From assembly GCF_027484505.1 (NCBI RefSeq), contig NZ_JAIXSV010000279.1, positions 1 to 43,675 on the forward strand: 43,675 bases of DNA, read 5' to 3'. Below the pieces are notes generated by a model. That model did not search any database. It was not told the DNA's origin and was given only the letters and a program-made list of their open reading frames with translations. Shown here in pieces: positions 6,331 through 23,699 of the stretch. The position numbers and the translations under genes are program-made. The DNA comes from Asticcacaulis sp. GTDB taxonomy: Bacteria > Pseudomonadota > Alphaproteobacteria > Caulobacterales > Caulobacteraceae. The stretch's first letter is position 1. Each line of letters opens with the position of its first letter.

Positions 6331-7017
6331 ATGCCCATGAACCGCCCGGCCACCTTCAGACTCACCGCCCTTATCCTCGGTACCGCCCTGCTGTCGGCCT
6401 GCGCCTCAAACGCCCCGCCCAGCCTTCAGTCTCTGGCACCGACGCCACTGGACCAGTATCCGCTTCAGGCCGAGTCGCGCACCGATGCCCTGCATTTCAA
6501 GATTCACCCTAAGAGTGGCCTGTCCGAAAATCAGCGCCGCGCCCTTGATCAGGTGGCCCGCAAGGCCAGTTGGAACGGCGGCGAGGCGGTTGATATCACC
6601 ATCCTGACTGCCAATACGCCCGACGCCCTGCGCGCTGGCGCGGCCATTCGCGCCTATTTCAACGACCATCAGGTCAGCGTCCACGCCGTATCGCAAACGA
6701 CCAGCACAAGCCAGCCCGCCGATGTGGTCAGCCTGATTACGCGGGAATACCGCGCCGTGGTCAACGACTGTAATCAGGAATGGGAAAATCTGGCGGCCAC
6801 CCGCCACAATGCCGCGCCACAGAATCTGGGCTGTGCCATCAATGCCAATCTGGCGGCGCAGATCGACGATCCGCGCGATATCGCCGCGCCACAGCCGGCG
6901 ACACCCGGCGACGCGGGACGCCGCAGCATCATTATCGACAAATATCGCAAGGGCGAGGTTACCTCGGCGGCCAAGGATGATGCCGCCAAGAGCAATGTCG
7001 CCCAGGTCATCAAGTGA
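6331..7017 (+). CDS. cpaD: Tad pilus lipoprotein CpaD
   Basis: 228 residues with a lipoprotein signal peptide and a clear lipobox, LLSAC, giving lipidated C24. The body matches the CpaD family: a beta-rich domain with VDITILTANTPDALRAGAAI, then NCNQEWENLA-type and NLGCAINANLAAQIDDPRD segments. CpaD-type lipoproteins help secretin assembly or stability at the outer membrane. AGGA lies about 9 bases before the ATG. It follows cpaC by 11 bases, and its stop overlaps a possible GTG start of cpaE (GTGA). Confidence 0.9.
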   Translation: MPMNRPATFRLTALILGTALLSACASNAPPSLQSLAPTPLDQYPLQAESRTDALHFKIHPKSGLSENQRRALDQVARKASWNGGEAVDITILTANTPDALRAGAAIRAYFNDHQVSVHAVSQTTSTSQPADVVSLITREYRAVVNDCNQEWENLAATRHNAAPQNLGCAINANLAAQIDDPRDIAAPQPATPGDAGRRSIIIDKYRKGEVTSAAKDDAAKSNVAQVIK

Positions 7018-8453
7018 GCCCGTCCATGTCCTCTACTGCCAGACAGACCGACCCGTTCGACAACTTCGACGACGCCGACGACAGCTTCACGCAGAATTAC
7101 GAGGCGGCAGATGCCCTCGATCTGGGCGACCCTTTCGAGGATCTGCCAGAAGAGGATCTGCACCCGCTGACGCCCGCGCCGGGTCTGCCGCGTCAGGCCC
7201 TAACCGCCGCCAGTTTCGCCGCCGTCGAGCCCACGGATGAACTCGGTGCGGTGTCCATCCCGCGCATCGGCATCCACTTCTTCCCCGAAAATGACGCCAC
7301 GCTTCAAGCCTGCGACACGGCGGCACTCGACCGTCGCATGGCGCGCGCCCAGTCTCTGGTCCGCCGCGGCGGCATCGAAGAAGCCATCGCCGTCTATCAG
7401 CACGAACCGACTCCGTCGCTGCTGATCGTCGAATCGAAGCAGGCGGCGCATGGTCTGCTGGAACAGCTTGGGCGGCTGGCCGAAGTGTGCGACACTAATA
7501 CCAAGGTGGTGGTGATCGGCGCGCACAACGACATTTCTCTGTACCGCGAACTGATCCGTCAGGGTGTGTCGGAATATATGGTGGCACCGGTCAAGCCGCT
7601 GCAACTCATCAAATCCATCTCTACCCTGTTCAACGATCCGGAAACGCCATTCGTGGGCCGCGCCATTGCCTTTATCGGCGCGCGCGGCGGGGCCGGCTCC
7701 TCCGTTTTGGCGCACAATTTCGCGCACAGCCTGTCGGAAGTGATGCAGGCCAATACGGTCATTGCCGATTACGATCTGCCGTTTGGGACCGCCGGGCTCG
7801 ACTTCAATCAGGACCCGCTGCAAGGCATGGCCGACGCCCTGAACGAGCCCGACCGCCTCGATCAGGTGCTGCTGGACCGCATGCTGACGCGCTGCACCGA
7901 GCGCCTGTCGCTGTTCTCGGCGCCGGCCTCGCTCGATCAGGACTATCTGGCCGATGAGGAGGCCTTCGAAGAGGTGACGCGCAAGGTTCGTTCCGTCGCG
8001 CCGTTCATCGTGATGGACCTGCCGCATGTGTGGACGCCGTGGTTGAAAAAGTGCCTGATCGCCGCCGATGAGGTGGTGATCGTCGCCACACCGGACCTCG
8101 CCAGTCTGCGCAATGCCAAAAACCTGATCGAACTGCTGAAATCCTTCCGCCCGAACGATAACCCGCCGCGCGTCGTCCTCAATCAGGTCGATATGCCGGG
8201 TCGTCCGGAAATCCCGGTCAAGGACTTCACGGCGGCCCTGGGGGTTGCCCCCGTCTGCACCATCAGCTTCGATGCCAAGACCTTCGGTCAGGCCGCCAAT
8301 AACGGACAGATGATCGGCGAATGCGCCCCGGCGTCCAAGGCGCACGAGGCGCTTCTGACCCTGACCGCCACCATCACCGGCCGTACGGCGGAAACGAAAA
8401 AGAAGGCGGCCTCCACCTCGCTGATCGGGAAATTCTTCCCGAAGAAGAAGTGA
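7014..8453 (+). CDS. cpaE: Tad pilus polar-localisation ATPase-like protein CpaE
   Basis: About 479 residues. An acidic N-terminal stretch is followed by an atypical receiver-like domain (about 80-200) and a MinD/ParA-type P-loop domain (about 215-460). The deviant Walker A reads GARGGAGSS (G222-S230): the signature lysine is replaced by arginine, as is usual in CpaE. Other MinD-like blocks are VIADYDLPFGTAGLDF and FIVMDLPHVW. In Caulobacter, CpaE places the pilus secretin at the pole. The start is uncertain: GTG 7014 overlaps the cpaD stop, and ATG 7026 is also possible. A Lys-rich tail ends the protein. Confidence 0.9.
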   Translation: MSPSMSSTARQTDPFDNFDDADDSFTQNYEAADALDLGDPFEDLPEEDLHPLTPAPGLPRQALTAASFAAVEPTDELGAVSIPRIGIHFFPENDATLQACDTAALDRRMARAQSLVRRGGIEEAIAVYQHEPTPSLLIVESKQAAHGLLEQLGRLAEVCDTNTKVVVIGAHNDISLYRELIRQGVSEYMVAPVKPLQLIKSISTLFNDPETPFVGRAIAFIGARGGAGSSVLAHNFAHSLSEVMQANTVIADYDLPFGTAGLDFNQDPLQGMADALNEPDRLDQVLLDRMLTRCTERLSLFSAPASLDQDYLADEEAFEEVTRKVRSVAPFIVMDLPHVWTPWLKKCLIAADEVVIVATPDLASLRNAKNLIELLKSFRPNDNPPRVVLNQVDMPGRPEIPVKDFTAALGVAPVCTISFDAKTFGQAANNGQMIGECAPASKAHEALLTLTATITGRTAETKKKAASTSLIGKFFPKKK

Positions 8454-8462
8454 GGCTGACAG

Positions 8463-10079
8463 GTGTTCGGAAAGCGCCCCACGGACTCATCGGGTAAACC
8501 CGCCGGCTTCGGTGCCGCGCGCGCGGCCGCCCCGTCACCGGGCGCGCAGGCCGCCGCACAGATGCGCCCGCAGGCGCTAAGTGGTGGCAATGCCTCCGCT
8601 GACAAGCCCAAAGACATCAAGGGTGCGCCCCCGCCTGCCAAGCCGGCCGGCGATATTGCTACGCGTCCGCAAGGCGTCGCTGAGACCTCGCCCGCGGCCG
8701 AAGACCGCCGCAGCACCGACAAACCGGCCGTCAAAGGCGGCAAGCTGGCCGCCGGTATCGACCAGATGCACAAGGCGCAGGCGGTCACTGAGATCGTGCG
8801 TGAGCAGTCGGACTATTATCACGCCACCAAGACGGCGATCTTCAACGCGCTTCTGAACACTATCGACCTGTCACAACTGGCACAACTGGACCAGAAGGCG
8901 GCATCGGAGGAAATCCGCGACATCGTCTCGGAACTGGTGACGATCAAGAACGTCTCCATGTCCATCGCCGAGCAGGACGCGCTGGTTCAGGACATCATCA
9001 ATGATGTTCTGGGCTATGGGCCGCTGGAACCGCTGCTGGCGCGCGACGACATCGCCGACATCATGGTCAATGGCGCGGGCCGCGTCTTCATCGAAGTTTC
9101 GGGCAAGGTGCAACTGACCAATGTGCGCTTCCGCGACAATGGGCAGTTGATGAACATCTGTCAGCGCATCGTGTCGCAGGTCGGTCGCCGCGTCGATGAA
9201 AGCTCGCCCATCTGTGACGCCCGTCTGCCGGACGGTTCGCGCGTTAACGTCATTGCGCCGCCTCTGGCGCTGGATGGCCCGACGCTCACCATTCGGAAGT
9301 TCAAAAAAGACAAGCTGACCATGCGCAATCTGGTGGAGTTCGGCTCCATCAGCCCGGAAGGGGCGCGCGTTTTGGGTGTCATCGGGGCGTCGCGCTGTAA
9401 CGTGCTGATCTCTGGCGGTACGGGTTCGGGCAAGACAACGCTGCTCAACACCATGACGGCCTTCATCGACCCGACCGAGCGCGTCATCACCTGCGAAGAC
9501 GCTGCCGAACTGCAACTTCAGCAGCCGCATGTGGTGCGTCTGGAAACCCGTCCACCCAACCTCGAAGGTCAGGGCGCGATCACCATGCGCGATCTGGTCA
9601 AGAACTGTCTGCGGATGCGCCCCGAACGCATCATCGTCGGCGAAGTGCGCGGCCCGGAGGCCTTCGACCTCCTGCAGGCCATGAACACCGGCCACGACGG
9701 TTCGATGGGCACGCTGCACGCCAACTCCCCGCGCGAAGCCATTTCGCGCCTGGAGTCGATGATCACCATGGGCGGTTATGGCCTGCCGTCGCGCACCATT
9801 CGTGAAATGATCGTGGGCTCGGTGGACATCATCGTTCAGGCCGCGCGTCTGCGCGACGGGTCGCGCCGCATCACCCACATCACCGAAGTTCTCGGCCTTG
9901 AAGGCGACGTCATCATCACGCAGGACCTGTTCCTGTATGAGATCGAGGGCGAAAACAAGGAAGGCAAGATCATCGGTCGCCACCGTTCGACCGGGATCGG
10001 TCGTCCGCGTTTCTGGGACCGTGCGCGTTATTACGGTCTGGAGCGCGAACTGGCGGAGGCGCTCGATGCTGCGGAATAA
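8463..10079 (+). CDS. cpaF: Tad pilus assembly ATPase CpaF (TadA)
   Basis: 538 residues. It begins at GTG 8463 with GAGG 7-8 bases before it. A low-complexity Ala/Pro/Lys-rich N-terminus (about 1-100) precedes a type II/IV secretion ATPase. Walker A is GGTGSGKTT with K324. Also visible are the Asp box (CEDAAELQL), the extended PPNLEGQG region, the GEVRGPEA Walker B and the His box [11 protein letters not shown]. It is a hexameric cytoplasmic motor that drives Flp pilus polymerisation through the TadB/TadC platform. It lies 9 bases after cpaE, in one operon. Confidence 0.95.
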
Positions 10080-10115
10080 GCCCGTCATCTGGTCCTGCGC
10101 CACAGGTGTCCGGCC

Positions 10116-11096
10116 ATGATGATCGTCCTCATCGCCTTTCTGAGCTTTGTTATCCTCGCCTCGCTCGGCTTCGTGCTGACCGGTGGTGGCGGCTCAGAGG
10201 TTGCGACCAAGCGCGCGCAGGCCATCGCGGTGGGCGCCACCTCGGCCGCCAAGCGCAAGAGCCAGCGCACCGCCGCCAGCCGCACCCCTGAGGAGCGCCG
10301 CAAGCAGATTCTTCTGCAACTCAAGGAATCCGAGCAGCGCGAACGCAAGGCACGCCTGTCGCTGACGGCGCGTTTGCAGCACGCCGGCCTGACGCCCAAT
10401 GTGAAAACCTTCTGGATCTGGTCCGTTGTCGGGGGCCTGATCGCGGCGGTGATCGTTCTCGTCCTCAGCCGAAACGCTCTGGCGGCGCTGGGGGCCGGTT
10501 TCGCCTTTGGTTACGGCGCGCCGCGCTGGGTTCTGTCGTTTCTGGCCAAGCGCCGCATCACCAAATTCACTGCCAGCTTTGCCGACGCCATCGACATTCT
10601 GGTGCGCGGCATCAAGTCGGGCCTGCCGGTCCATGACGGCCTGAAGGTCATTGCCAGGGAACTGCCCGCGCCTCTGGGGCCGGAGTTTCAGCGTCTGAAC
10701 GAAAATATCGCCATCGGCATGGGGCTGGACATGGCGCTCGAAAAGATGTGCGAGCGCATGCCGACCCCGGAACTGCGCTTTTTCACCATCGTCATCGCCA
10801 TCCAGCAAAAGACCGGCGGCAATCTGGCCGAAGCGCTGGGCAATCTGTCGCACGTCCTGCGCTCACGGCGCATGATGCGCGAAAAGATCAAGGCCCTGTC
10901 GTCCGAAGCCGTCGCCTCGGCCTGTATCATTGGCGTCCTGCCGCCCGGCGTCGGCACTATGATCTACATCACCAATCCCGGCTACATGGCGCCGCTGCTG
11001 TCCGATCCGCGCGGCAATCTGATGCTGCTGGGCGGGGCCGTGTGGATGGCCTCCGGCATCCTGATGATGCGCAAAATGATCAATTTTAAATTCTAG
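10116..11096 (+). CDS. tadB: Tad pilus inner-membrane platform protein TadB
   Basis: 326 residues. An N-terminal membrane helix (MMIVLIAFLSFVILASLGFVL in outline), a basic cytoplasmic stretch rich in Lys/Arg/Glu (about 35-85), two closely spaced helices, then the T2SSF domain (FADAIDILVRGIKSGLPVHDG to KIKALSSEAVASA) and C-terminal helices. TadB and TadC are half-size relatives of the PilC/GspF platform and contact the CpaF motor. It starts 36 bases after cpaF; tadC follows after 16 bases. In Caulobacter these genes are called cpaG and cpaH. Confidence 0.9.
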   Translation: MMIVLIAFLSFVILASLGFVLTGGGGSEVATKRAQAIAVGATSAAKRKSQRTAASRTPEERRKQILLQLKESEQRERKARLSLTARLQHAGLTPNVKTFWIWSVVGGLIAAVIVLVLSRNALAALGAGFAFGYGAPRWVLSFLAKRRITKFTASFADAIDILVRGIKSGLPVHDGLKVIARELPAPLGPEFQRLNENIAIGMGLDMALEKMCERMPTPELRFFTIVIAIQQKTGGNLAEALGNLSHVLRSRRMMREKIKALSSEAVASACIIGVLPPGVGTMIYITNPGYMAPLLSDPRGNLMLLGGAVWMASGILMMRKMINFKF

Positions 11097-11112
11097 GGCG
11101 GGTGATTTTCAG

Positions 11113-12093
11113 ATGAAAGACCTGGCCTACACCCTCATGCAGCCGGCCAATCTGATCGCCATGGTGGTCGCGATACTGGCCTTCTTCGCCGTGCTGACGC
11201 TGATGCGTTCGTCCCTGTCCGGTGAGCAGTTGGACAAGCGGATGAAGGCCGTGGCGCAACGCCGCGAAGAACTGCGCCGGCAAGCCCGTCAGTCCATGGT
11301 TCAGTCCGGCAGCAGCGGCCTGCGTCAGACCGATGAAAGCCTCTATAAGCGCATCGTCGATCGCCTGAATCTGAAGACCCTGCTCGAAGACCCCAAGGTG
11401 GTGGACAAGCTGGCCATGGCGGGCTTCCGCGGCCCCAAACCGGTCACCACCTTCTATTTCTTCCGTTTCCTGATGCCCTTCGTTCTGGGGGCGTTTGCGG
11501 CCTTCTACATCAATGTGGTCAACGATTTCGGTCAGCCACAGAACATCAAGCTGCTGATCTGCGTCGCCATGTTCGTTGCCGGCTATTACGCGCCCAACAT
11601 CTATATCAGCAATGCCGCCTCCAAGCGCCGCGCCTCGATCGTCGCCGCCTTTCCCGATGCGCTGGACCTGCTGCTGATCTGCGTCGAAGCCGGCATGTCT
11701 ATCGAAGCTGCCCTGCAAAAAGTGTCGCAGGAAATCGGTTCGGCCTCCATCGAACTGGCCGAAGAACTGTCTCTGCTGGTGGCGGAGCTGTCCTACCTGC
11801 CCGAACGCCGCATGGCCTATGAGGGGCTGGCGCGCCGCACCAACTATCCGGGCATCAAGTCCGTCTGTACGGCGATGATTCAGGCCGAAAAGTACGGCAC
11901 ACCGCTGGGCACGGCGCTGCGCGTCATGGCCAAGGAAAACCGCGAACTGCGCCTGTCGGCGGCGGAAAAGAAGGGGGCGGCCCTGCCCGCACAGCTGACC
12001 GTGCCGATGATCGTCTTCTTTCTTCCCGTGCTGTTCGTCGTCATTCTGGGCCCGGCCATCCTGAACATCATGGACATGATGCATAAGAAGTAG
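11113..12093 (+). CDS. tadC: Tad pilus inner-membrane platform protein TadC
   Basis: 326 residues, the same length and layout as TadB. One N-terminal helix (IAMVVAILAFFAVLTLM) precedes a basic cytoplasmic segment, paired helices (LMPFVLGAFAAFYINVV and CVAMFVAGYYAPNIYIS), the T2SSF domain (FPDALDLLLICVEAGMSIEAAL to LRVMAKENRELRLS) and a C-terminal helix. It is the partner of TadB in the pilus platform. It is the last pilus gene on this strand: no tadD-like TPR gene follows here, so any further components must lie elsewhere. Confidence 0.9.
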   Translation: MKDLAYTLMQPANLIAMVVAILAFFAVLTLMRSSLSGEQLDKRMKAVAQRREELRRQARQSMVQSGSSGLRQTDESLYKRIVDRLNLKTLLEDPKVVDKLAMAGFRGPKPVTTFYFFRFLMPFVLGAFAAFYINVVNDFGQPQNIKLLICVAMFVAGYYAPNIYISNAASKRRASIVAAFPDALDLLLICVEAGMSIEAALQKVSQEIGSASIELAEELSLLVAELSYLPERRMAYEGLARRTNYPGIKSVCTAMIQAEKYGTPLGTALRVMAKENRELRLSAAEKKGAALPAQLTVPMIVFFLPVLFVVILGPAILNIMDMMHKK

Positions 12094-12162
12094 GCGTTGC
12101 GACGGCTTGCGTGGCGAGACGAGAACATATAAAGAACATGATGACACGTCAGAAAGTCGATC

Positions 12163-14307
12163 ATGTCGCTTTTTCCTGCCCTGCCGCCGACCTATTACCA
12201 CGCGCATTTCAGCGAGATGCTGGCCTTTGTGCGCGACGTCTATGCCAGCGTTCTGGGTGAGGCTGAACACAACTTCATTGCGGATTTTACGGGTCTGAGC
12301 CTTGAGGCGCAGTGCCTGTTTATCCGCATGTCGAACCGCAAGCGGCCGGTGTTTACGATCGCTGACCTCGTCTATGCCGAAATCGGTGAGATCGAATGGC
12401 GGCTGGAGGAGCTGGCCGAGGCCGGGTTCGCGCGTCGCGCTTGCGCCGAAGATTACCGGTCGTGGCTCGACACCCTGACGCGGCCCGTACTTGAGCAGAT
12501 GGCGCGCGACCACGACATCGCCCTGTCGCGCCAATGGTCGAAGGCGCAGGTGGCGCGGGCAGTCGAGGCGACCCTGCCGTTTGACGATTTCGCTGCGGGC
12601 TTTTCACAGACCACCTGGGTGCCGGGGCATCGGGAGACGGTGGGCTTTCTGCTCTACCTCTATTTCGGCAAGCTGAGCGACAATCTGACGGCCTTTACTC
12701 TGCGTGACCTGGGCGTCGTCTCAGTGCGCGGTCAGACGGCCTATCAGGCGCGCTTCGTCAGCCGCGAGGAGGCACTGGGCGGCCATGCCTATACGCAGGC
12801 CTTGCGGTCATTAAAGGGGGCGACGCCAGAGGATTATCAGCGTCTGGCCGAACGCGCGGGGACCCTCCCCTCCCCCGCCACGCCGTTTGTCGAAGGCCTG
12901 CGCGACCGCCTGATGCACGATCTGGGGCGCTTCTTTGAACGCCAGAAGGACACGGATCAGGCCATCGGGTTTTACGCGCAATCGGGCCTGTTCGAAAGTC
13001 AGGAGCGTACCATTCGCCTGCTGCACGGGCGCGGCGAAACAGAGCGCGTTCTGGGCTTGCTGGAGTCCATGCTCGATGCCCCGGCGCACGATGAAGCCTT
13101 CCTGTTCGCTGACGACTTTTACCGTCGCAAGTTCGGCAAGAAACGCACCAGCGCGTTTACGGACCTGCTGCGCGACGGCGAAGAGATCAGCGCCGATGAC
13201 CTCTATCGCGGCCTGCCGGAGCTGGCGGCCATCCGTCATTACGAAGCACGCGGCTGGACGGCGCACCACGTCGAAAACGGCCTGTGGCCGGCCCTGTTCG
13301 GCCTGCTGTTCTGGGAAGACCTGTTTGAGCAGCCGGGATCGCTGGCCTCAGAATTCGACTGGATGCCGCAGGCCCTGAAAGACAATCGCTTCGCCACCCT
13401 GTTCCCGCACGTCGTTACAGAGCGTTTGGGCGCATTGGAAACGGGCCGCGGCTGGCCGCTGATCGCCGACACCCTCGCCCGCCACGAAGGCCGGGAGAAT
13501 GGCGTCTTCGGCTGGTGGCCGGGTCTAAGCGACCTGATGCACGACTTTCTGAGCGCCGCCCCACCCAAGGGCGTGCGTGACATAGTGGCGGCCCTGTGCA
13601 ACGATTTTCAGGGGTTGCGCGACGGCTTTCCCGACCTGCTGCTGATCGGCCACGGTGGCGTGCGGTTCGTCGAGGTCAAGGGCGAGGGTGATCAGGTGCG
13701 CCGGCATCAGTTGGCGCGGCTCAACCGGCTGCGGCAGGCCGGATTTGAAGCGGGTATACTGCGCGTCGCCTTCCGCCCCGACCCGGATCAGGTCTATACG
13801 GTGGTCGATATCGAGACCACCGGCGGACAGGCGGCCTATGAGCGCGTGACGGAAATCGGCGCGGTCAAAATCCGCAATGGTGAGATCATTGACACCTGGC
13901 AGAGCCTGATCAATCCCGAACGCCGCATCCCGCCCTTTATCACCGAACTGACGGGCATCAGCAATGCGATGGTCCGCGACGCCCCGCGCTTTGCCGACAT
14001 CGCCGACGACTTCGAGGCCTTCCTGAAAGGCACGGTCTTCGTCGCCCACAATGTCAATTTCGACTACGGCTTCCTGTCGGCGGAATACCGGCGGCTGGAA
14101 CGGCCCTTCCGCTATCCCAAACTGTGTACCGTTTCCTCGATGCGGCGGCATTTTCCAGGATTGGCGGCCTATGGACTGGCACCGCTGTCGCGCGAATTTG
14201 GTATCGAGCTGACCAACCACCACCGCGCCCTGTCAGACGCGATGGCGGCAGCGGAATTGCTGAAACTGGTCAATGAAAAGCGGCTGTCTGCCCTTACGGC
14301 TTTTTGA
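12163..14307 (+). CDS. FAN1-type VRR-NUC nuclease fused to a DEDDh 3'-5' exonuclease
   Basis: 714 residues. Residues about 5-105 resemble the N-terminus of bacterial FAN1 proteins (YYHAHFSEMLAFVRDVY, LFIRMSNRKRPVFTI). A SAP-like segment (about 105-145) and a helical-repeat region come next. The VRR-NUC nuclease has its PD-(D/E)xK residues intact: D491 in GFPDLLLI, E504 and K506 in FVEVKGEGD. About 40 residues later a DnaQ-like exonuclease begins: D549 and E551 in VVDIETTG, D634 in AHNVNFDYGFL, H687 and D692 in HHRALSDA, the complete DEDDh set. FAN1 enzymes act as structure-specific and 5'-3' nucleases in crosslink repair; DEDDh domains degrade 3' ends. A role in DNA repair is likely. The ATG has only a weak AGAAAG upstream. 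It overlaps the convergent methyltransferase gene by 14 bases. Confidence 0.85.
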   Translation: MSLFPALPPTYYHAHFSEMLAFVRDVYASVLGEAEHNFIADFTGLSLEAQCLFIRMSNRKRPVFTIADLVYAEIGEIEWRLEELAEAGFARRACAEDYRSWLDTLTRPVLEQMARDHDIALSRQWSKAQVARAVEATLPFDDFAAGFSQTTWVPGHRETVGFLLYLYFGKLSDNLTAFTLRDLGVVSVRGQTAYQARFVSREEALGGHAYTQALRSLKGATPEDYQRLAERAGTLPSPATPFVEGLRDRLMHDLGRFFERQKDTDQAIGFYAQSGLFESQERTIRLLHGRGETERVLGLLESMLDAPAHDEAFLFADDFYRRKFGKKRTSAFTDLLRDGEEISADDLYRGLPELAAIRHYEARGWTAHHVENGLWPALFGLLFWEDLFEQPGSLASEFDWMPQALKDNRFATLFPHVVTERLGALETGRGWPLIADTLARHEGRENGVFGWWPGLSDLMHDFLSAAPPKGVRDIVAALCNDFQGLRDGFPDLLLIGHGGVRFVEVKGEGDQVRRHQLARLNRLRQAGFEAGILRVAFRPDPDQVYTVVDIETTGGQAAYERVTEIGAVKIRNGEIIDTWQSLINPERRIPPFITELTGISNAMVRDAPRFADIADDFEAFLKGTVFVAHNVNFDYGFLSAEYRRLERPFRYPKLCTVSSMRRHFPGLAAYGLAPLSREFGIELTNHHRALSDAMAAAELLKLVNEKRLSALTAF

Positions 14308-22238: not shown

Positions 22239-23699
22239 ATGTCCGTCCGCGTCCTCACCCTGCTTTTCGCTGCCCTCAGCCTGCCGCTTTCGGCGGTCGC
22301 GCAAACCGCACCAGCCACCCTTCCCGCCACGCGTGACCTGACGCAGGACGCCGGTTTCAAAGCGCAGAAAGCCGCCATCGAGGCCGCCGCGGCCCAGATG
22401 CCCAATACGGGTCGCGCCAAAAACGTCATTCTGTTTATCGGCGATGGCATGGGCATCAATTCGGTGACCGCCGGACGCATACTGGCCGGGCAGGTGCGCG
22501 GTCAGGACGGGGCCAGCTACGTACTGTCGTTCGAAGCCCTGCCCTATACGGCGTTTTCCAAGACCTATTCGACCAATAATCTGGTCACCGACTCCGCCAA
22601 TGGCATCTCGGCCATCACCACCGGCGTCAAGACGATCAACGGCGCCATCGGCGTCAATGGCGACGTGAAGAGTAAAAGCTGTGAAGGCGTCGCGGCCGCC
22701 CGCGTCCTGACCATCGCCGAGCAGGCCAAGCTGTCGGGCCGCTCGGCCGGCGCCGTCACCACATCCGGTATTACGGACGCGACCCCGGTCGGCACCTATG
22801 GCCACACCTCGACGCGCAACTGGCGCTCGGACACCGACCTGCCGCCCGAAGCCGTGGCCGCAGGCTGCACCGATCTGGCCCGACAACTGGTGCAGGCCCC
22901 GGCGGCGCTGCGCCTTGACGTCGCCATGGGTGGCGATCTCGAAGACTTCCTGCCCGTGACCGCCGGTGGCGTGCGCAAGGACGGCCGCGACTTAACCGCC
23001 GAATGGAAGGCGCAAAAAAACGCCGCCGTCCTGACCGGCAAGACGCAGCTTGCGGCGCTGAACACCCAAACCGCCGGGCCGGTTCTGGGCCTGTTCAGCA
23101 AGGGCGACCTGCCCTCGCCGCTCGATAAGCCGCAGGACGTGCCGGGTCTCGATGAAATGACCGCAAAGGCCATCGACCTCCTGTCGCGCAATGACAAGGG
23201 CTACTTCCTGCTGGTCGAATCCGCCTCGATCGACAAGTGGCACCACCGCAATGACGCCCACCGCGCCCTGCACGATGTCGATGAACTGGCCAAGGCGGTG
23301 AGCGTCGCCCTGGCCAAAACCGACCCGAAAGACACGCTGATCCTGATTACCGCCGACCACAGCCACGGCCTGACCCTATCCGGCTATGCGCCGCGCGATG
23401 GCCGCATCGACGGCGTTTCGGGTCAGGGTGACAAGGCCTATCCGCTGCTTAGCTACGCCACCGGCCCCGGTGGCGAGCACCCGCACGCGGGCGGCTACAC
23501 GGCTGAGGAAACCGAGGCGCTGGGCTTCACCAATCCGGCCCTGTTCGGCATGCCGAGCGCGGCGCATGGCGGCGAGGACGTGCCGGTCTATGCGCGCGGC
23601 CCGCAGGCCTATCTGGTGCGCTCGACCGTGGACTCGACCTATCTCTATCAGGTCATGGCCCGCGCCCTGTTCGGCACGGACGCGGCTAAGACGAAGTAG
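22239..23699 (+). CDS. Alkaline phosphatase (PhoA family)
   Basis: 486 residues with a Sec signal peptide (LTLLFAALSLPLSAVAQ). The metal and nucleophile motifs of PF00245 are present: D69 in LFIGDGMG, S119 in VTDSANGISAITTGVKT, ESASIDKWHHRNDAHRA, and ITADHSHGLTLSGY. A further metal-binding histidine region is GGEHPHAGGYTAEE. It is a periplasmic phosphomonoesterase that releases phosphate. A PHO box lies directly upstream, so induction under phosphate limitation is expected. It is transcribed after zapE but most likely from its own promoter. Confidence 0.93.
   Translation: MSVRVLTLLFAALSLPLSAVAQTAPATLPATRDLTQDAGFKAQKAAIEAAAAQMPNTGRAKNVILFIGDGMGINSVTAGRILAGQVRGQDGASYVLSFEALPYTAFSKTYSTNNLVTDSANGISAITTGVKTINGAIGVNGDVKSKSCEGVAAARVLTIAEQAKLSGRSAGAVTTSGITDATPVGTYGHTSTRNWRSDTDLPPEAVAAGCTDLARQLVQAPAALRLDVAMGGDLEDFLPVTAGGVRKDGRDLTAEWKAQKNAAVLTGKTQLAALNTQTAGPVLGLFSKGDLPSPLDKPQDVPGLDEMTAKAIDLLSRNDKGYFLLVESASIDKWHHRNDAHRALHDVDELAKAVSVALAKTDPKDTLILITADHSHGLTLSGYAPRDGRIDGVSGQGDKAYPLLSYATGPGGEHPHAGGYTAEETEALGFTNPALFGMPSAAHGGEDVPVYARGPQAYLVRSTVDSTYLYQVMARALFGTDAAKTK

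Follow-up and report, generated by a model that had tools for sequence, protein, structure and literature searches.

The FAN1-DEDDh fusion gene and its two active sites

The window, by which we mean the whole stretch of 43,675 nucleotides analysed here, comes from an Asticcacaulis genome of 4.66 Mb and carries at 12163..14307 (+) an ATG-initiated gene of 714 codons in which a FAN1 nuclease is joined to a DEDDh exonuclease, as judged from the ORF list, Pfam, the predicted structure and its fold matches. Against the curated Pfam cut-offs three domains were called: FAN1_HTH (PF21315) at residues 11-90 (12193..12432, +; 66.4 bits versus a cut-off of 27, E 2.1e-18), VRR_NUC (PF08774) at residues 434-536 (13462..13770, +; 50.6 bits versus 23.8, E 2.5e-13) and, for the DEDDh exonuclease, RNase_T at residues 547-700 (13801..14262, +; 134.6 bits versus 24, E 6.4e-39). 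A helical solenoid spanning about residues 241-338 (12883..13176, +) sits at the position of the FAN1 TPR domain, where TPR_7 reaches 17.2 bits and thus stays below its cut-off of 27.9, the region being helical in the model. The VRR-NUC and DEDDh domains are connected by a short junction (residues 537-546; 13771..13800, +), and Pfam found no GIY-YIG domain in the 714-residue protein.

An earlier sequence-only reading of this DNA had placed the VRR-NUC residues D491, E504 and K506 and the full DEDDh set of D549, E551, D634, H687 and D692 in one frame, and every one of these positions proved right. To this site we add E371 (codon 13273..13275, +), which by alignment supplies the FAN1 active site with its fourth metal ligand; its counterparts, in a mapping read from alignments, are E386 of Pseudomonas aeruginosa FAN1 (PaFAN1) and E834 of human FAN1, the residues reported as that ligand in the two proteins (PMC4348246). 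E371, together with the LexA box, the fixed-length junction and the family spread described below, goes beyond the earlier reading.

The N-terminal part had also been called FAN1-type, and we can now say so on three counts: Pfam, a sequence search in which residues 5-534 matched PaFAN1 (E about 1e-32) and Foldseek all return FAN1, which rules out assignment to another VRR-NUC family. In the same sequence search residues 544-706 matched Staphylococcus aureus DinG (SaDinG) and other DEDDh exonucleases. The AlphaFold2 model, built from 48 alignment rows, is of high confidence (mean pLDDT 93.6, pTM 0.84). Foldseek ranks complexes of PaFAN1 with 5' flap DNA first (4.1e-29 to 5.6e-26, 26% identity), followed by human FAN1 and then by the SaDinG exonuclease (1.2-1.3 Å, 38% identity). 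The model also contains the helical insertion described for the VRR-NUC domain of FAN1 (PMC4348246), seen as helices between the strand at 366-369 and the strands at 492-506.

Conservation and a junction of fixed length

Removal of duplicates with identical last 500 residues reduced 92 full-length matches to 83 distinct fusions. Invariant in all 83 are E371, D491, E504, K506, D510, D549, D634, H687 and D692, as well as the junction residues P541 and Y545, and E551 is kept in 82. The earlier claim that both active sites of the protein are intact is supported. The sole catalytic change was seen in a Bradyrhizobium-like sequence (L074:4808-6967), where E551 is replaced by G in the motif DIGTS; judging by this substitution, DEDDh activity may be dispensable in that protein.

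The distance from K506 to D549 is 44 residues in 83/83 fusions, and the D549-D634 and D634-H687 spacings are likewise constant, while the E371-D491 spacing ranges between 112 and 129 and the stretch separating residue 90 and E371 between 277 and 334. Because the K506-D549 distance is no more variable than the spacings within the DEDDh domain itself, the alignment points to rigid coupling of the FAN1 and DEDDh parts rather than to a flexible tether. Within the VRR-NUC domain the fusions carry a characteristic pair of arginines (R513 in 77 and R514 in 76 of the 83), positions that are occupied in stand-alone FAN1s by Q (20/20) and D (18/20). Y11, R55 and R59 of the FAN1_HTH domain are invariant in all 83 fusions and all 20 stand-alone FAN1s, and R285 is kept in both groups alike. 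Every domain is under purifying selection in six comparisons with Asticcacaulis relatives, with dN/dS values of 0.06-0.12 for DEDDh and 0.11-0.39 for VRR-NUC; the N-terminal part gives 0.09-0.38 and the middle part 0.01-0.24.

Might the reading frame be an artefact, i.e. two adjacent genes that were merged or a frame that was mis-called? Nothing at this locus speaks for it, and what can be cited in its favor lies elsewhere, namely frame-broken copies in otherwise related genomes (L020 in genome G019, L080 in genome G358, and L130). This reading is refuted, and left with next to no probability, by a junction that is invariant across 83 distinct fusions, all in one frame, and by a confident model of a single chain; the relatives hold the unbroken fusion instead of one of its domains with a frameshift behind the longer frame. 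The locus is a single gene of 714 codons, and a chance or sequencing frameshift is excluded. The expectation that an ordinary bacterial FAN1 ends at its VRR-NUC domain was likewise borne out, the 20 stand-alone proteins stopping 0-17 residues past the alignment column that holds residue 536.

In an unrooted tree of FAN1 parts one branch splits 66 fusions (thinned at 85% identity) from 20 stand-alone FAN1s (SH-aLRT 100, quick method); L081 was omitted by hand, and L179 because an overlapping ORF had displaced its FAN1 frame. In the DEDDh tree, which came with a long-branch warning, a branch supported at 98/97 parts the fused and Bacteroidota DEDDh domains from the DnaQ-like rows L002, L029, L030 and L032, and row L031 falls inside the fused/Bacteroidota side on a very long branch.

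LexA-type boxes upstream of the fusions

A pattern scan located a GTTCN7GTTC direct repeat (GTTCTTTATATGTTC) at 12123..12137 (-), a perfect copy of the alphaproteobacterial LexA-box consensus. This predicted box lies inside the 69-bp gap ahead of the fusion gene, 25 bp from its start codon; the window has only two further perfect matches, at 23082 and 31488, and both fall inside frames. GTTCN7GTTC is the reported LexA box of Caulobacter and other Alphaproteobacteria (PMC9578287, PMC12700426, PMC8565304), and as positive controls in the same genome it starts 60 and 86 bp ahead of the lexA frame and 110 bp ahead of recA.

The alphaproteobacterial and gammaproteobacterial boxes were sought within 200 nt upstream of the 82 fusions that have 150 nt or more of upstream sequence (L140 was dropped here and retained in the scan for GTTCN4GAAC). 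A perfect GTTCN7GTTC precedes 38/38 alphaproteobacterial fusions, where 0.13 would be expected from shuffles and 0.31 from control pieces (34 of 4157, the pieces being 200 nt long and overlapping at a step of 50). These 38 are distinct sequences that include many close relatives and, counted by record titles and genus labels, represent at least 7 genera or unplaced lineages. The same box was found in none of the 40 gammaproteobacterial and other fusions, 16 of which have CTGTN8ACAG instead (0.10 expected; 17 of 6589 control pieces), a motif absent in turn from all 38 alphaproteobacterial fusions. If one mismatch is tolerated and the core must be A/T-rich, the count rises to 24/40 (0.55 expected), and 14/40 have neither the perfect nor the one-mismatch A/T-rich form, including all members of a five-member Woeseiaceae-like clade. 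Finally, GTTCN4GAAC, which we take to be the Verrucomicrobia LexA motif, is present upstream of 4/5 Verrucomicrobiota fusions (7 sites in 59,332 bases).

Since LexA-type boxes lie upstream of the fusions across lineages, each in its lineage-specific form, the fusion gene is very probably an SOS repair gene. Such control may extend to other FAN1 genes as well, for a perfect CTGTN8ACAG was seen near the start of the stand-alone genes L178, L180, L181 and L182. A near-box occurs in 5/20 stand-alone FAN1s. One genome (G373) holds two different one-frame fusion copies (L072 and L073), each with an upstream LexA-type box.

Distribution of the fusion and the question of a defence role

The fusion is present in 26 of the 61 genomes around the window, its own included (24 one-frame, 1 cut by contig ends and 1 frame-broken). 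Within the genus it was found in the host genome and in 22/24 others; it is absent from the remaining 2 and from 12/12 genomes of other genera of the family, which argues for an accessory function, and it reappears in 3/24 genomes of other families of the order. No FAN1-only match was found among the 61 genomes. Wider surveys with FAN1_HTH, which are the unbiased ones, detected the domain in 2/289 genomes of the class, with all same-class matches being one-frame fusions, in 55/398 genomes of the phylum, and in 33/197 genomes of the order to which genome G598 belongs, where 8 genomes have frames of 719-784 residues and 5 of these are verified fusions. Outside the class one family (f179) consists of five one-frame fusions and one frame-broken member, and a further 35 loci checked are stand-alone FAN1 (two of them, L040 and L081, being the same gene). 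A contig scan based on DEDDh patterns, and hence blind to members without DEDDh, gave among the best 80 of 500 relatives 55 FAN1-matching loci (52 one-frame fusions, 2 cut by contig ends, 1 frame-broken) and 25 DEDDh-only loci. Altogether fusions are known from Alphaproteobacteria, Gammaproteobacteria and Verrucomicrobiota, the record titles naming among other hosts Asticcacaulis, Bradyrhizobium, Hellea, Algimonas, Neomegalonema, Alteromonas, Pseudoalteromonas, Rheinheimera, Woeseiaceae and Verrucomicrobiota.

Five fusions reside on large plasmid-class replicons, two of Bradyrhizobium and three of Pseudoalteromonas (NZ_CP126014.1, NZ_CP064702.1, NZ_CP099918.1, NZ_CP022523.1 and NZ_CP074588.1). 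Three of these records annotate an 'exonuclease domain-containing protein' and two have no gene at the position, so that the FAN1 nature of the protein is easily overlooked.

The plasmid-class copies, the patchy presence of the gene among genomes and the scores of its DEDDh part to the PADLOC models PDC-S48, DEDDh and Effector could all be taken to indicate an anti-phage or anti-plasmid nuclease. We nevertheless consider this very unlikely. The PADLOC matches span residues 540-707 only, with none to the FAN1 part (1-539), and for this reason the defence assignment was rejected; the LexA boxes described above also argue against it. Phage origin was rejected on two further searches, in which none of 187 matching phage records covers 80% of the query and none of the best 80 of 94 viral-contig relatives, again retrieved with DEDDh-based patterns that are blind to members without this domain, covers the FAN1 part. 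In addition, neighbour clustering revealed no recurrent fusion neighbour conserved across different lineages: the cluster with the 546-residue frame upstream of the fusion in L087 is confined to four Asticcacaulis loci. In the window itself the region just upstream (7014-12093) resembles, by eye from the translations, a tad/flp pilus cluster.

Stand-alone FAN1 genes and their helicase neighbour

The stand-alone FAN1 loci differ from the fusions in this respect. At 12 of the 22 examined (L081-L084, L166, L168 and L176-L181) a helicase gene of one family was found (frames of 759-1073 residues), a representative of which carries PF13307 and PF06733 and is therefore of the DinG/XPD type; in the 11 loci where both were located the FAN1 and helicase frames abut or overlap on one strand. 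Fusion loci, on the other hand, lack helicases of this family (0/70). A distant relative (27% over 246 residues) was noted about 3.5 kb from the fusion in L124. Such helicases are not simply missing from fusion-bearing genomes, given that 8 of the 11 searched encode a PF13307 protein somewhere.

It is possible that stand-alone FAN1 and its DinG/XPD-type neighbour constitute a bacterial pair resembling FAN1 and FANCJ. A FANCJ-type helicase is reported to share one crosslink pathway with FAN1 in Arabidopsis (PMC6550410), which fits the helicase neighbourhood of the stand-alone loci. Three pairings can thus be recognised, i.e. FAN1 fused to DEDDh, FAN1 beside the helicase, and DEDDh fused to a helicase as reported for SaDinG (PMC12345164), and because of them we suggest that FAN1, DEDDh exonucleases and DinG/XPD helicases form one functional set, which would be of relevance to the FANCJ-FAN1 pathway of Arabidopsis (PMC6550410).

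A proposed two-polarity repair nuclease

Starting from the architecture, intact sites, conservation, fixed junction and LexA-type boxes documented above, we judge it somewhat probable that the protein is an SOS-induced repair nuclease in which two active sites of opposite polarity are rigidly held in one polypeptide. The activities, substrates and order of steps in what follows are those that we infer. LexA would keep the gene repressed until DNA damage, as the boxes imply. The FAN1 module would then bind its DNA substrate, be it a 5' flap, a nick or a branch that has stalled, and incise a few nucleotides past the junction, as PaFAN1 is reported to do 4-5 bp beyond the branch point (PMC4103454), and might continue in the 5' to 3' direction, PaFAN1 like human and mouse FAN1 having been described as possessing some 5'-3' exonuclease activity (PMC4103454). 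The DEDDh domain, placed at a fixed distance, would degrade the 3' end left by incision in the 3' to 5' direction, the DEDDh domain of SaDinG being reported to degrade ssDNA 3'-5' (PMC12345164). As a result a gap would open on both sides of a single nick, so that recombination or gap filling could follow once the interstrand crosslink or the blocked branch has been unhooked or cleared. Three observations count against this reading: 14 of the 40 gammaproteobacterial and other fusions show neither form of the CTGTN8ACAG box, L074 has lost E551, and the gene behaves as an accessory one.

Should the lesion be a crosslink at all? The LexA-type boxes and the related DEDDh domain of SaDinG lend indirect support to a role in crosslink repair, in that mitomycin C resistance in S. 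aureus is reported to require both the DEDDh and the ATPase activities of SaDinG (PMC12345164). The main rival, possible if on balance rather unlikely, is an SOS nuclease unconcerned with crosslinks, whose FAN1 part would act at stalled forks, cutting flaps or slipped loops, and whose DEDDh part would only degrade the released flap or polish the 3' end for a polymerase. PaFAN1 is described as acting on 5' flaps generally, the nearest DEDDh relatives serve several repair and replication settings, and LexA boxes do not specify the type of lesion, all of which is compatible with such an enzyme. The fixed-length junction, however, suggests that both sites work on one bound substrate, and the DEDDh part comes closest in fold to an exonuclease that belongs to a crosslink-repair protein.

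Within the reading of an SOS-induced nuclease with two coupled sites we tentatively advance a more specific version, which we regard as a serious possibility short of an even chance: a one-polypeptide crosslink excision machine that would make one structure-specific nick followed by bidirectional digestion from it by the two coupled sites. Here the exonuclease would replace the DinG/XPD (FANCJ-like) helicase found beside many stand-alone FAN1 genes, and the fusion would represent an alternative bacterial FAN1 pathway, not a decorated FAN1.

What bacterial FAN1 does in vivo is not known to us from the literature. The lineage-specific LexA-type boxes would give this variant a concrete one in damage-induced two-polarity repair. 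Neither a FAN1-DEDDh protein nor its LexA control was found in the titles and abstract starts of the full-text collection searched, which includes few subscription journals; the architecture itself may well be catalogued in domain databases already. The fusion is a real, conserved and probably SOS-controlled variant of FAN1, undescribed as far as searched.

Comparison with known systems

PaFAN1 (PDB IDs 4R89, 4R8A, 5Y7G and 5Y7Q) and human FAN1 share with the fusion the HTH, the helical middle domain and a VRR-NUC domain with an E-D-E-K site, yet identity to them is only 24-29% and the C-terminal DEDDh domain is present only in the fusion. SaDinG resembles the fusion in joining a DEDDh domain, the closest in fold, to another repair activity; it differs in that the partner is a helicase and the DEDDh domain is N-terminal, and it is reported to lie outside LexA control (PMC12345164). 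In MrfAB of Bacillus subtilis a DEDDh exonuclease (MrfB) likewise acts on mitomycin C damage (PMC12345164), but there helicase and exonuclease are separate proteins and FAN1 is not involved.

The DEDDh-GIY-YIG proteins of Mycobacteria and Bacteroidota (PRK07883 group) offer another parallel, a DEDDh exonuclease being joined in them as well to a damage endonuclease. In NCBIfam the DEDDh part is matched best by this group, the fusion scoring 181.2 bits over residues 543-703 only, against a cut-off of 495. Among the best 80 of 500 relatives the closest DEDDh domains outside the fusions belong to Bacteroidota proteins, 21 of the 25 having frames of 439-509 residues, and GIY-YIG was found in both of the two scanned. 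A Cho-like GIY-YIG domain fused to an epsilon-type exonuclease has been reported in Mycobacteria (PMC1564403). In all of these proteins, however, the endonuclease is GIY-YIG (Cho/UvrC type) and not FAN1, and the order of the domains is reversed.
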